From Streptomyces sp. R41 (GTDB lineage Bacteria > Actinomycetota > Actinomycetes > Streptomycetales > Streptomycetaceae): a stretch of 64,000 nt of DNA. Positions within the stretch are counted from its first letter, which is position 1. Every line of letters starts with the position of its first letter. A program made the translations under genes and the position numbers. The DNA is taken from the NCBI RefSeq assembly GCF_041053055.1, contig NZ_CP163443.1, positions 3,472,001 to 3,536,000 on the forward strand, in the 5' to 3' direction. Shown here piece after piece: positions 59,263 through 64,000 of this stretch. The notes under the pieces are model-generated. The model worked only from the letters and a program-made list of their open reading frames with translations, made no database searches and had not been told where the DNA came from.

Positions 59263-60744
59263 GTGACCGACCCCGTCCCCCGCCTCCCGGCCCTCCTGGA
59301 AGCCGTCCTCAGCGTCGGTACCGACCTCGAACTGCGGGCCACGCTCCAGCGCATCGTGGACGGCGCCGCCGAGCTGACGGGGGCCCGGTACGCGGCGCTG
59401 GGCGTGGTCGACCCGGGGCACGACGGGCTGATGGAGATCGGTACGGCGGAGCTGCCCGAGTCCGGCCGAAGGAGCTTCATCGGGCGGACGGACGACTCTC
59501 TGGGCGTACCCATCCGTGTCCACGACGAGGTGTTCGGGAACCTGTGTCTCGCCGAGAAGTCCGGCGGCCCGTTCACCGACCAGGACGAGCAGTTGCTGCG
59601 CGTCCTCGCCGCCCAGGCGGGCATCGCGATCGCCAACGCCCGGCTGTACGAGACGGCCAGGCAGCGCGAGCGGTGGATCCAGGGCGCGGCGGCCGTCACC
59701 ACCGCGCTGCTCACCGGTGAGGACGCCGCCGACGCGCTGACGACCGTGGCCGACCGGGCCCGGGTCCTCGCCGACGCCGCGGCGGGCGTCATCCTCCAGC
59801 CGACGGCGGAGGGCGGCATGGAGATCGTGACCGCGTCCACGCTTGACGACCCCGGCGACATCGTGGGCACCACGATCGCGCCCGGCAGCCCGGTCCTTGA
59901 ACAACTCCTCGGCGGCGAGCCGGTGTTCATCGAGGACTCGGCGACCGACCCCCGGATGACGACTCACGTACGGACGCGCTTCGGGCCCAGCATGATGCTC
60001 CCCCTCCAGGCGGGCGGCCGCCTCATCGGCACGCTCGCGCTCCCCCGCCGGCGCGGCGACCGGCCGTACACCTCCGTGGAACGGCTGCTGGCCACGCAGT
60101 TCGCCTCGCAGGCCGCGCTGGCCCTGGTCCTCGCCGACGCCCAGCACAGCCGTGAGCGCCTCGCGGTCTACGAGGACCGTGACCGCATCGCCCGCGATCT
60201 GCACGATCTGGTCGTCCAGCGCCTGTTCGCGACCGGCATGATGCTCGAATCCACGCAGCGAAGGAGCGCGGGCGCCGGCGGCGACATGGAATCCGGCGGC
60301 TCGGGCGAGGACGTGCACGCCACGCTCGGCCGGGCGGTCGACGAGCTGCAGTCCACCATCCAGGAGGTCCGCACGGCCATCTTCGCGCTGCAGCAGCCGC
60401 CGGCGGACGCCCCCACCACGTTCCGCGGCAAGGTGCTGCGCGAGACGGCCGGGGCGGCGGCGGTGCTCGGCTTCCAGCCGTCCACACGGTTCACCGGCGC
60501 CGTGGAGAACCGTATCCCGGAGTCCGTGGCCGGTCATCTGCTCGCGAGCCTGCGCCGCGCGCTGGCCGCCGCGTCCCGCCGCGCCGGAGTGTCCCGCATC
60601 GACGTCACGGTCGACGCGACGGCGACCCTGCCCGACGGCCGCGCCGGCGTCCGACTGACCGTCCACGACGACGGCACCACGGAGGACGGCGGAGCGGGCA
60701 CCACGGTCACCTGGCAGTCACCGCTGCGAGCACCACCGAGGTGA
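59263..60744 (+). CDS. GAF-domain sensor histidine kinase (DevS-like) with decayed ATPase domain
   Basis: 493 residues. Two GAF domains (about 20-130 and 145-285), then the HisKA_3 dimerisation helix with His314 in DRIARDLHDLVVQRLFATGM. The C-terminal HATPase part is abnormal: the N-box reads ALAAASRRA instead of NAxRHA, the G1 box ends DDGTT, and the G2 box is missing. ATP binding is therefore doubtful. The GAF domains show no obvious haem motif. No response regulator gene follows. It may act as a phosphatase, scaffold or partner of another kinase. 25 bp after mbl. The stop codon lies inside the first of three 31-bp repeats. Confidence 0.85.
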   Translation: MTDPVPRLPALLEAVLSVGTDLELRATLQRIVDGAAELTGARYAALGVVDPGHDGLMEIGTAELPESGRRSFIGRTDDSLGVPIRVHDEVFGNLCLAEKSGGPFTDQDEQLLRVLAAQAGIAIANARLYETARQRERWIQGAAAVTTALLTGEDAADALTTVADRARVLADAAAGVILQPTAEGGMEIVTASTLDDPGDIVGTTIAPGSPVLEQLLGGEPVFIEDSATDPRMTTHVRTRFGPSMMLPLQAGGRLIGTLALPRRRGDRPYTSVERLLATQFASQAALALVLADAQHSRERLAVYEDRDRIARDLHDLVVQRLFATGMMLESTQRRSAGAGGDMESGGSGEDVHATLGRAVDELQSTIQEVRTAIFALQQPPADAPTTFRGKVLRETAGAAAVLGFQPSTRFTGAVENRIPESVAGHLLASLRRALAAASRRAGVSRIDVTVDATATLPDGRAGVRLTVHDDGTTEDGGAGTTVTWQSPLRAPPR

Positions 60745-60813
60745 GCCGTCACCGCTGTGAGCACCACCGAGGTGAGCCGTCACCGCTGTGAGCACCAGCG
60801 ATGTGAGCCGTCA
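60721..60813. repeat. three 31-bp tandem repeats across the sensor gene end
   Basis: Units 60721-60751, 60752-60782 and 60783-60813, with the pattern CCGCTGTGAGCACCACCGAG then GTGAGCCGTCA; the third differs at two bases. The stop codon TGA of the sensor gene is in unit 1. The rest of the 283-bp gap to the FxsA gene contains no gene I can support. Confidence 0.85.
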
Positions 60814-61027
60814 CCGCTCCTCGCAACCGACACCCGCCGAACTGACGTCTCCCCGGCCGAGCCTTCGCGTCGCCGGGAAATCGGATTCACACTGTCGGCC
60901 CCGCTCCGATTGCGTAAACCCGGACTCGGCGCTAAGCATGAAATCTAGGAAGAATCAACCCCGCACCAGAGATCCAACTGATAGCCTCCGCCTCGACAGT
61001 CACTCAACCCAACGAAAGTCCCAAAAA

Positions 61028-61210
61028 ATGAACCTTTCGGTGACGCCGGCGACGCACCACTCCGCCGCCCCCAGGCCCGTGCGCCGACCGCACACGCCCC
61101 TGTCGGCCATCGACCCGCTCGGGGCTGCCGCCGTGAGGTCCGCCGGTCGAGTGACGGACATCCCCGGACGACGTCCGGTCAAGCCGATCACTTTTGACTC
61201 GGCGCTGTAG
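61028..61210 (+). CDS. fxsA: FxSxx-COOH RiPP precursor FxsA
   Basis: 60-residue precursor peptide. The leader is basic and proline-rich (MNLSVTPATHHSAAPRPVRR), the middle contains PLSAIDPLGAAAVRSAGR, and the C-terminus reads GRRPVKPITFDSAL. The last five residues F-D-S-A-L fit the defining FxSxx-COOH pattern exactly. The radical SAM enzyme FxsB, encoded 153 bp downstream, would crosslink Phe and Ser in FDS into a three-residue cyclophane. The ATG at 61028 fits family leader length; an upstream in-frame ATG at about 60938 is less likely. Confidence 0.88.
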   Translation: MNLSVTPATHHSAAPRPVRRPHTPLSAIDPLGAAAVRSAGRVTDIPGRRPVKPITFDSAL

Positions 61211-61363
61211 GCGCCGTAGATCACGCAGACTTCGGCACGGGCGCATCCGGCGGTACGACGACCGCCCGGTGCGCCCGCGCGCGTGCGCCGGAGCCCTCAA
61301 CCGCCTTGACCGATCAAGGGGTTGGCGGTACAAGCAACCCTCCGTCGGCACTATTCTCACCCC

Positions 61364-63523
61364 GTGAAGCTGCAGCAGTTCGTCCTCAAGATCCACAGTC
61401 GATGCGACCTCGCCTGTGATCACTGTTATGTGTACGAGCATGCCGATCAGAGCTGGAAAGGCCGCCCGACCTTCATTTCCGAAGAAACGCTCGGAAAAGT
61501 GGCCCGGCGATTCGCGGACTATGCGGAAGAACAAAAACTACCCTCCGTTTCCGTGATCCTTCACGGTGGCGAACCTCTTCTCGTGGGTCCCGTCCGTATG
61601 AGAAACATCTGTGCGGAACTCACTCGAACCATCGCCCCGGTGACCGCTCTCGATCTCCGTATTCACACCAATGGCGTGCAGCTCAACACGCGCCATCTCG
61701 ATGTGTTCAAGGAATTCGGCGTCAAGGTCAGCATCTCGCTCGACGGCGACCGTGCAGCCAACGACCGGCACCGACGCGATCGGCGGCGGCGCAGCAGCTA
61801 CGACCGGGTGCTGCGCGCGATCGAGCTGCTGCGCACACCCGAGTACCGGCATCTCTACAGCGGTCTGCTGTGCACCGTGGACGTGGTCAACGACCCCGTC
61901 GCCGTGCACGACGCGCTCGCTGCCCTGCATCCGCCCCGCATCGACTATCTGCTGCCGCACTCCACCTGGGACAGTCCACCGCCCAGGCCGGTCGACTCGC
62001 CCACCGCGTACGCCGATTGGCTGCTCAAGATCTTCGACCGGTGGGACCGGCAGGGGCGCACCGTCTCGGTGCGGACCTTCGAGTCGGTCCTCAGCACCCT
62101 GCGGGGCGGGCCGAGCCTGACGGAGGCGATGGGGCTCGCGCCGAGCGATCTCGCGGTGGTGGAGACCGACGGCAGTTTCGAGCAGGCGGACTCGCTGAAG
62201 ACGGCGTACGACGGGGCACCGGCGACCGGTTACGACGTCTTCCAGCATCGCTTCGCGGAGTTCGCGCGGCATCCCGGCGTCCGCGCCCGCCAGCTGGGCC
62301 TCGCCGGTGTCAGCGCGACCTGCCGCCGCTGCCCGGTGATCGAATCGTGCGGCGGAGGCCTCTACGCCCACCGGTACAGCAGCGGCCGCGGCTTCGACAA
62401 TCCGTCCGTTTTCTGTTCCGACCTGCGCGCTTTCGTCGACGGCGTGGCCGAGCGCATCACCGACCACACCCTCAGCCCGGCCGTCCGCGACCGGGACGAA
62501 CTCCGTTTTGCTCAGGGTGAGTTGAATCGGCACTCGCTCTCCCACGCGGTGGCCCGGCACTCCGGAGAGCCGGACTGGGACGAAATGTGGCGGGCCTTCC
62601 TGTACTTGGACGGCACGCCGGACGCGACGCCCGAGGTCGACGAGATCCTCGCCCACCCCTATCTGCACACCGCGCTGAAGCACTGTCTGCACGACCGGGT
62701 CACCACCCCGGCGCCGCTCGCCTCAGCGATCGTCGCGGTCGCCGTCCGCGCACGGGCCGACCTCAAGCTCACCTGGGACCAGACCGCCCCCGAGCTGCAC
62801 CTCCCCACCCTGGGGACCCTCGCGCTCCCGGAAGGGGGCCGCCTCGAAGTCACCGTGACCGCCGGCCGGCTCCGGGTGCGTACCACCACGGGCGAGGAGT
62901 GCGGCCCCGAGGACACCCCCGCTCCATGGCGCCCCCTGCACCCCATGACCCTCACGGACGGCACCCCGCTGCTCCTCGACGACGCCGACCCCCTGCGCGA
63001 CTGCTACCCCGCCCGCGTCACCCCGCCCCTCGACCCCGACGAGCTCGCCAGGTTCACCGAACGGCTGTGCACGGCCTACGAGTTGATGGAGGAGCGCGAG
63101 CCCGGCTGGCGTGACGACGTCAACGCGCTGCTCGCCACCACGGTCACCCCGCTCGTGGCGGGCGCCGGAGTGCGGCTCGGCGCGCACGGGCTCGGCGCGG
63201 TGGGCGTGGCCGTCGACTTCGAGCCGGAGGAGTTCGTGCGTGAACTGCCGCGCACCGGACGTCTGGCGCGGCTCGCGGCGCTGCGGGAGACGGCGGATCT
63301 GAACGTGCCGGGCAGCAGGGCCGGACGGCTGCTCGACGAGGCGAGCCGGGAGCTCGGCAACGCCGCCTTCTGGAAGGGCGACGACGACGCGCGCGCCGCC
63401 GCGCTGGAGCGGACGGGCCGCGCCCTGGAGCAGCTGGCCACCCGATCTCAGGGCGAACTCACCGAGACGGGCGCGGTGTTGGCCGAGGAACTGCGGGCCG
63501 AGTGGGCGGGCCACCGTGACTGA
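61364..63523 (+). CDS. fxsB: FxsB-family radical SAM/SPASM cyclophane-forming peptide maturase
   Basis: 719 residues from the GTG at 61364. Radical SAM cluster Cys14, Cys18, Cys21 in HSRCDLACDHCYVYEH; glycine motif ILHGGEPLL; SPASM cysteines in TCRRCPVIESCGGGLYAHRY plus FCSDL for auxiliary Fe-S clusters. It acts on FxsA. The C-terminal 350 residues resemble the HEXXH-motif peptide-modification domain often found next to FxsB (AHPYLHTALKHCL, ELHLPTLGTLALPE), but no HExxH occurs where expected; the stretch reads FVRELPRTGRLARLAAL. It therefore may serve in substrate binding only. The 8-bp overlap with the acetyltransferase gene couples them. Confidence 0.88.
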   Translation: MKLQQFVLKIHSRCDLACDHCYVYEHADQSWKGRPTFISEETLGKVARRFADYAEEQKLPSVSVILHGGEPLLVGPVRMRNICAELTRTIAPVTALDLRIHTNGVQLNTRHLDVFKEFGVKVSISLDGDRAANDRHRRDRRRRSSYDRVLRAIELLRTPEYRHLYSGLLCTVDVVNDPVAVHDALAALHPPRIDYLLPHSTWDSPPPRPVDSPTAYADWLLKIFDRWDRQGRTVSVRTFESVLSTLRGGPSLTEAMGLAPSDLAVVETDGSFEQADSLKTAYDGAPATGYDVFQHRFAEFARHPGVRARQLGLAGVSATCRRCPVIESCGGGLYAHRYSSGRGFDNPSVFCSDLRAFVDGVAERITDHTLSPAVRDRDELRFAQGELNRHSLSHAVARHSGEPDWDEMWRAFLYLDGTPDATPEVDEILAHPYLHTALKHCLHDRVTTPAPLASAIVAVAVRARADLKLTWDQTAPELHLPTLGTLALPEGGRLEVTVTAGRLRVRTTTGEECGPEDTPAPWRPLHPMTLTDGTPLLLDDADPLRDCYPARVTPPLDPDELARFTERLCTAYELMEEREPGWRDDVNALLATTVTPLVAGAGVRLGAHGLGAVGVAVDFEPEEFVRELPRTGRLARLAALRETADLNVPGSRAGRLLDEASRELGNAAFWKGDDDARAAALERTGRALEQLATRSQGELTETGAVLAEELRAEWAGHRD

Positions 63524-64000
63524 TCGCACCCAACTGGCTCATTTATTCGCCGAGTTGGGGGTGCGCCCCGGCGGCATCCTCATGGTCCACGCCTCCCTCG
63601 GCGGTGCGGGGCTGCGCGACACCCACGTACGGGACGCGCTGCTCGACGCGCTCGGCCCCGACGGCACGCTCGTCGTGCCCGCCTTCTCGCCGGAGAACTC
63701 CTTCACCTCCCGGGCGTACAAGGCGCTCACCGACGGCATGTCCGAGGACGAGGAGGCGGTGTTCCGGGCGTCGGCGCCCCCGTTCGATCCCGATACGACG
63801 CCCTGCCCGACGATGGGCGTGCTCGCCGAGTGCGTACGGACCACCCCGGGCGCCGTGCGCAGCGGGCATCCGCACACCTCGCTGGCCGGGCTCGGCCCCC
63901 GGGCCGGGGAGCTGCTGGGCCAGCACGATCCGCACTGCCATCTCGGTGAGCGCTCCCCGCTGGCGCGGCTGTACGCCGCCGACGCCCAAGTCCTGCTGTT
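63516..64000 (+). CDS. AAC(3)-family N-acetyltransferase, 3' end outside window
   Basis: First 161 residues of an aminoglycoside 3-N-acetyltransferase-fold protein: ILMVHASLGGAGLRD, DALGPDGTLVVPAFS, PPFDPDTTPCPTMGVLAECV, RTTPGAVRSGHPHTSLAGLG, LGERSPLARLYAADAQVLL. These are the AAC(3) signature regions. In Fxs RiPP loci such a gene commonly follows fxsB, so acetylation of the modified peptide (or self-protection) is more plausible than aminoglycoside resistance. It starts at the GTG at 63516 inside the end of fxsB. Confidence 0.87.
   Translation, partial: MTDRTQLAHLFAELGVRPGGILMVHASLGGAGLRDTHVRDALLDALGPDGTLVVPAFSPENSFTSRAYKALTDGMSEDEEAVFRASAPPFDPDTTPCPTMGVLAECVRTTPGAVRSGHPHTSLAGLGPRAGELLGQHDPHCHLGERSPLARLYAADAQVLL

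Follow-up and report, generated by a model that had tools for sequence, protein, structure and literature searches.

The stretch of DNA analysed here (the window: 64,000 nucleotides, positions 3472001-3536000 of the 10.46 Mb chromosome of Streptomyces sp. R41) ends within an operon of the Fxs class, in which the gene of a precursor peptide (fxsA) is followed by that of a radical S-adenosylmethionine (SAM)/SPASM enzyme (fxsB), an AAC(3)-like acetyltransferase gene, fxsC and fxsT, in this order. The best explanation overall, to which we give a probability of about 0.5, is that this operon makes an Fxs cyclophane peptide that would be acetylated and would serve as an intracellular signal for the NLR-like and TIR-like proteins FxsT and FxsC. 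It is mostly a known Fxs system; the parts other than the AAC(3)-like partner carry NCBIfam names. What we did not find described is the recurrence of this partner and its near-constant presence with the form of FxsB that has lost its HExxH motif, and sequence comparisons provide good evidence for a tie between the AAC(3)-like enzyme and Fxs biology. If this explanation is true, an AAC(3)-family enzyme gains a peptide substrate, and a Streptomyces gene resembling an aminoglycoside-resistance gene can be a tailoring gene for a ribosomally synthesized and post-translationally modified peptide (RiPP). The function of Fxs would also become testable, as a modified small peptide switching an NLR-like ATPase and a TIR protein.

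The operon and its relatives

The original prediction for this DNA had named an FxsA peptide ending in FDSAL, a radical SAM/SPASM FxsB and, overlapping its gene, an AAC(3)-like gene; all three features are present in the sequence. It regarded them as a complete system: the three genes are real, but the window stops within the AAC(3)-like gene, and reading the genome onward showed that fxsC and fxsT lie further on. These two genes had been overlooked, as had the inactivated C-terminal half of FxsB, and the continuation of the operon into fxsC and fxsT changes its likely biology. From fxsB through fxsT, neighbouring genes overlap or have about 100 bases between them. A 20-pair terminator-like hairpin lies 3' of fxsT and is the sole one on the + strand in a scan of L004 2700-11900, for which 2.7 were expected by chance with both strands counted. 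No protease gene was found within the operon as read here, and a promoter scan of the locus gave no result.

Comparison with the NCBIfam Fxs models (TIGR04268, TIGR04269, NF040587, NF040588, TIGR04276 and NF040586) showed that FxsB, its inactivated C-terminal domain (C-domain), FxsC and FxsT match over cut-off. Unlike in the NCBIfam set, FxsA falls below its cut-off, and an AAC(3)-like gene, matched only by general AAC(3) models under their cut-offs, is found between fxsB and fxsC. Kaur et al. 2020 (PMC7159879) described peptide-processing systems of actinobacteria that stand alone and contain an AP-ATPase and an inactive MinD/ParA domain; these systems share with the present locus the FxSxx peptide, the radical SAM/SPASM enzyme and an AP-ATPase with a variant-Walker-A ParA-like domain. 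Their 'metallopeptidase' corresponds here to a fused domain lacking the motif and, unlike what is seen here, the consulted section of that paper mentions no acetyltransferase partner. The same work proposed that the peptides of larger conflict systems act as an amplifying toxin or signal, so that the earlier statement that the function of Fxs peptides is undescribed was too strong. Between these roles, we favour that of a signal or regulator acting on FxsT/FxsC.

For the comparisons reported below, relatives were taken as the best 80 of 341 named FxsB relatives, all from Streptomyces, giving 81 loci including this one. FxsC and FxsT were counted where at least 7.5 kb was available downstream (n=75), AAC(3) where at least 1.2 kb was (n=77), and upstream genes only in relatives with at least 6 kb upstream (n=71).

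The precursor and its predicted ring

The fxsA gene (61028..61210, + strand), recognised by sequence, motif and context, starts at ATG 61028 and encodes a peptide of 60 residues, with a leader and a C-terminal Phe-Asp-Ser-Ala-Leu (last residues ITFDSAL); its stop codon is at 61208-61210. An open reading frame ending in FxSxx-COOH was found within 1.5 kb upstream of fxsB in 79 of the 81 loci versus 2 of 614 control windows, taken downstream of fxsB on both strands, and this exceeds chance. One of the two misses, L012, has an FDSAL precursor on the opposite strand, so that 80 of the 81 loci have FxSxx at the extreme C-terminus of a peptide encoded beside fxsB. The exception, L030, has a precursor ending in FNAGL, an ending also found in L143. 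Retention of fxsB with loss of the FxSxx end, which the original prediction had listed as a refuting case, was therefore encountered in this one lineage. The class nevertheless stands, because Ala is a known acceptor of the related enzyme HaaB (PMC11002830), and the FNAGL ending thus does not refute it.

The F-D-S-A-L codons (61193..61207, + strand) would encode the core, as suggested by the sequence and by residue usage in the 81 precursors; a Phe-Ser ring is predicted from the precedent of MscB. This triceptide synthase, whose precursor has a Phe-X-Ser pattern, is reported to join the C4 of Phe to the beta-carbon of the Ser two residues on (PMC11002830). From its motif we read MscB as an FxsB-family enzyme, and the same ring chemistry would be expected here. 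The F-D-S of FxsA fits this Phe-X-Ser joining, which supports the assignment of the locus as a cyclophane RiPP locus; by analogy with MscB, a Phe-Asp-Ser ring is predicted in FxsA.

FxsB and its inactivated C-terminal domain

The fxsB gene (61364..63523, + strand) starts with GTG at 61364, stops at 63521-63523 and encodes 719 residues. It was assigned to the FxsBH form from TIGR04269, NF040587 and a predicted model. The protein scores 596.6 bits against TIGR04269 (cut-off 370) and 310.1 bits against NF040587 (cut-off 225), which represents the form with an inactivated beta-hydroxylase extension. Both the CX3CX2C motif of the radical SAM cluster (Cys14, Cys18 and Cys21; 61403..61426, + strand) and the SPASM cysteines (Cys320, Cys323, Cys329 and Cys351; 62321..62416, + strand) are invariant in the 20 aligned sequences, namely that of the window and those of 19 chosen relatives. 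The predicted model (mean predicted local distance difference test (pLDDT) 81, predicted template modelling score (pTM) 0.55) matches the structures of ChlB and SjiH. At the sequence level, ChlB (9gm3, 9gmc) resembles the radical SAM half, over residues 3-365, and SjiH (22nu, 22ob) the C-domain, over residues 378-618. FxsB also matches pVip weakly (E 3e-9, PADLOC).

The C-domain (residues 370-714; 62471..63505, + strand) is of the HExxH type, as judged from NF040587, the 22nu and 22ob sequences and the 22ob fold. Unlike its intact relatives, it has no HExxH: alignment with 10 of them places R-T-G-R-L (residues 630-634; 63251..63265, + strand) where the motif would be. HExxH is kept in 0 of the 81 loci. 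An Arg occupies the fourth position of the motif in 80 of the 81, and the remaining positions vary freely; L103, which reads SEFQR, looks like a recent separate loss. Because the HExxH of intact relatives is lost, hydroxylation is not expected here. It should be noted that the same genome holds two more FxsB-like radical SAM genes, at 2312967-2314067 (L002) and 7053070-7054164 (L003), each with a nearby C-domain open reading frame that keeps HExxH (HEMQH and HELQH).

An AAC(3)-like enzyme accompanies the HExxH-less form of FxsB

The AAC(3)-like gene (63516..64000, + strand, cut by the window end), recognised by its Antibiotic_NAT match and by His173/Glu176, starts with GTG at 63516 and shares its first 8 bases with the end of fxsB. 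The full gene (L004:5516-6286) encodes 257 residues and its last codon is at genome position 3536286. The protein scores 206 bits against PF02522 (Antibiotic_NAT; gathering cut-off 25). All NCBIfam AAC(3) models remain below cut-off (best 115.5 bits versus 270), which places it far from the cut-offs for resistance AAC(3). FrbF is its best match among solved structures (E 2.2e-46), with the catalytic His and Glu kept. These residues, taken from the Antibiotic_NAT motif (PMC8956665), are retained in 61 of 61 Fxs-linked copies; Ser170 replaces the Thr of the family motif. Judged by these residues, the protein is an active-looking acetyl-CoA transferase.

In 49 of the 77 relatives with enough flank, an AAC(3)-like gene lies beside fxsB. 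FxsB and the AAC(3)-like protein are fused in frame in L012 (997 residues) and L017 (981 residues), and in L089 (G014) a HExxH-type C-domain and an AAC(3)-like domain share one 970-residue frame, with HEFLH at frame residue 595, within the domain match at 480-701. The genes of L089 run fxsC-fxsT-fxsB-fusion, and an MreB-like gene stands at the far end.

Co-occurrence was then measured in 392 genomes of the genus, 97 with NF040587 over cut-off (FxsBH genomes) and 295 others, with membership of the AAC(3) subfamily set at E 1e-56 or better. The subfamily is present in 95 of the 97 FxsBH genomes versus 20 of the 295 others (Fisher's test, 5e-68, ancestry ignored). Among the 95, the gene is within 3 kb of fxsB in 63; in the other 32 it is either on the same contig, at least 293 kb off (16 genomes), or on another contig, where a contig break is possible (16 genomes). 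Among the 20 others, 12 copies stand beside an Fxs locus that is lower-scoring, split, decayed or cut by a contig end. This association does not extend to AAC(3) relatives at large, because weaker paralogs (39-48% identity) occur in 6 of the 41 genomes in which NF040587 is over cut-off versus 40 of the 109 in which it is not, adjoining an Fxs locus in 2 of these 46 genomes (G014, G096).

The gene linkage, the fusions and the co-occurrence all connect the AAC(3)-like protein with Fxs, and its acetylation of the Fxs product is plausible. Of 52 AAC(3)-linked precursors, 14 have a Lys among their last 15 residues; of 29 other precursors, 2 do. A Lys near the core was therefore rejected as the general acetyl acceptor and, since most linked precursors lack one, the acceptor is more likely the N-terminal amine that removal of the leader would free. 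A simple replacement of the lost hydroxylase by AAC(3) was also rejected as a rule: an HExxH-type motif inside the C-domain coexists with AAC(3) in L089, L110 and L111, and both the motif and a linked AAC(3) are absent from L103 and L126. Among 20 stretches with matches under cut-off (mostly the highest-scoring rather than all such matches), HExxH is found inside the C-domain in 20 and AAC(3) beside it in 2; adding G066 (L087), which also ranks high among these matches but had been picked for its AAC(3), and in which the motif is lost and AAC(3) present, gives 20 of 21 and 3 of 21. The other stretches fetched with L087 were chosen largely by AAC(3) and yield no rate. No description of AAC(3)-like enzymes in Fxs operons was recognised among titles and the first parts of abstracts, a coverage outside which most subscription papers fall.

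FxsC and FxsT

Both remaining genes are outside the window. TIR-like fxsC (L004:6388-7713) was identified by NF040588 and TIGR04276, both domains of the protein being over cut-off (233.9 bits versus 130 and 170.3 bits versus 55, respectively). fxsT (L004:7710-11645) encodes a protein with ParA-like, TIR, NB-ARC and TPR parts, identified by NF040586 (1026.7 bits, cut-off 300) and by Pfam (NB-ARC 25.7, cut-off 23.5; TPR models matched). Linkage to fxsB was found for FxsC in 72 of 75 relatives and for FxsT in 73 of 75. FxsC matches Pfam TIR_2 (35.2, cut-off 28), and its Glu102, assigned as the TIR catalytic Glu by a weak alignment with 3h16 (E 0.31), is present in 73 of 75 sequences, the other 2 having Gln. 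At the matching position FxsT has Val, Leu, Ala, Ile or Phe in 72 of 75, and its TIR segment is dead-looking. The FxsT ParA-like domain has the variant Walker A KGGTGR in 75 of 75, and the NB-ARC P-loop is kept. By these features, FxsC and FxsT resemble an NLR-like sensor whose TIR executioner is a protein of its own. In its N-terminal part, FxsT (match in L004:7710-11642) also matches the PADLOC candidate defence family PDC-M28B (E 2e-22).

Proposed mechanism and alternative explanations

From the observed gene content and order, motifs and conservation, we infer the following pathway. By radical SAM chemistry, FxsB would join Phe56 to the beta-carbon of Ser58 in FxsA, yielding a three-residue cyclophane that only the last two residues of the peptide follow. 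The hydroxylase-type domain of FxsB, having lost the metal motif, would probably keep a binding or structural role only. The AAC(3)-like enzyme would most likely acetylate the product, probably at the N-terminus freed by trimming. Within the cell, the modified peptide would then be a ligand or signal of FxsT, which would be an NLR-like STAND ATPase (intact NB-ARC and TPR, a variant-Walker-A ParA part and a dead-looking TIR) controlling FxsC, the TIR-like protein that keeps the catalytic glutamate. A further-reaching version, which we put forward only tentatively, is that the cyclophane-locked and AAC(3)-capped peptide is the intracellular ligand by which the FxsT/FxsC TIR module is licensed or restrained, the AAC(3) being a standing part of the HExxH-less branch that the genome keeps whether in or out of the operon.

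Several results weigh against this pathway. FxsA scores only 18.6 bits against TIGR04268 (E 0.0016, cut-off 28), so that its name rests on the C-terminal motif and the context. The model of FxsC is of low confidence (mean pLDDT 67) with weak TIR matches only and no PDB match at E 0.001 or better, and PADLOC returned single-protein matches but no named defence system. In 28 of the 77 relatives no AAC(3) adjoins fxsB: 26 of these genomes hold a close copy elsewhere, L042 has none, and L007, counted here, has a short remnant and a distant paralog only. Together with G053 and G530, the two FxsBH genomes of the 97 in which no AAC(3) was found, L042 and L007 lack a close copy, and AAC(3) is thus not essential. 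It also accompanies HExxH-intact loci (L089, L110, L111), and 8 of the 295 non-FxsBH genomes (G029, G056, G444, G488, G511, G553, G582 and G598) carry it away from any Fxs operon, although the G598 copy is on a short contig and that of G056 about 1 kb past a HExxH-intact Fxs operon. Finally, the co-occurrence of AAC(3) with FxsBH is not phylogenetically independent; the sequences provide weak evidence for repeated independent association. In a first tree (86 rows, midpoint root) the copies at sites with a YigZ-family gene form one clade among the Fxs-linked ones. A second tree (44 rows, with a distant paralog) separates 22 of the 23 unlinked copies from those linked to Fxs (97/99), the long-branched paralog being placed among the unlinked copies and L132 being the sole unlinked copy nested among the linked ones. 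A separate, older function of the subfamily is therefore possible, and the gene may either have left the operon once or have been recruited into it once.

These trees bear on the idea that the AAC(3)-like gene has nothing to do with the peptide and is a passenger whose product would acetylate some other small molecule. The subfamily occurs at other sites, often by a YigZ-family gene in stretches with no Fxs gene, the gene is optional in the operon and L007 keeps only a remnant; since non-Fxs copies group apart once the distant paralog is included, we raised the odds of this idea slightly. With the overlapping gene start, the linkage in 49 of 77 relatives, the three in-frame fusions and the presence in 95 of 97 FxsBH genomes to set against it, we still consider it rather unlikely. 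A little less doubtful is the suggestion that the C-domain is more than a dead remnant, either having gained a new metal-free activity or being required for precursor recognition. Its retention in 81 of 81 loci from which HExxH has gone, and the Arg at the fourth position in 80 of them, point this way; the free drift of the non-Arg motif positions does not, nor do L094 and L140, which have no C-domain match beside the radical SAM gene, yet have AAC(3), FxsC and FxsT.

N-acetylation is common as a last tailoring step, and would equally suit an exported natural product, either an antibiotic or an intercellular signal, that FxsC and FxsT merely regulate or protect. Other radical-SAM cross-linked peptides, such as darobactin and dynobactin, are indeed antibiotics. 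However, the close spacing from fxsB to fxsT leaves no space for a transporter or protease gene before the hairpin (a statement limited to the operon), and FxsC and FxsT are missing from fewer loci than AAC(3) is, which makes export improbable, and more so than a passenger gene. Far less probable still is a role in cell shape through mbl and a GAF kinase. The original prediction had pointed to the proximity of these genes and both do lie directly upstream in this genome, but the arrangement is limited to a clade: across the Streptomyces relatives, MreB/Mbl is beside fxsB in 23 of the 71 counted, and the GAF kinase in 11 of them. An mbl-centred function was rejected on this synteny. All loci with either gene have an FxsB radical SAM identity to the present one of at least 74.7%, so that the mbl neighbourhood is a property of close loci rather than a signature of the system.

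Unlinked AAC(3)-like copies and upstream neighbourhood

For unlinked copies of the AAC(3)-like gene, the main neighbour is a YigZ-family gene; different genes adjoin the copies in L142/L147, L144 and L132. In eleven stretches (L093, L095-L100, L127, L128, L130 and L131) the copy is near a YigZ-family gene and no Fxs gene was detected in the stretch, and in L091 and L092 the AAC(3)/YigZ pair is close to a HExxH-intact Fxs operon. L136 (G625) has only fragments of FxsB and FxsT, with an open AAC(3)-like gene and MreB upstream.

With regard to the upstream genes, the name mbl is the label of the original prediction, and the genome holds one more MreB/Mbl relative (E 1e-10 or better). A 31-base tandem repeat (window 60717-60818) with 3.3 copies and 95% matches extends over the final codons and the stop of the GAF kinase gene.

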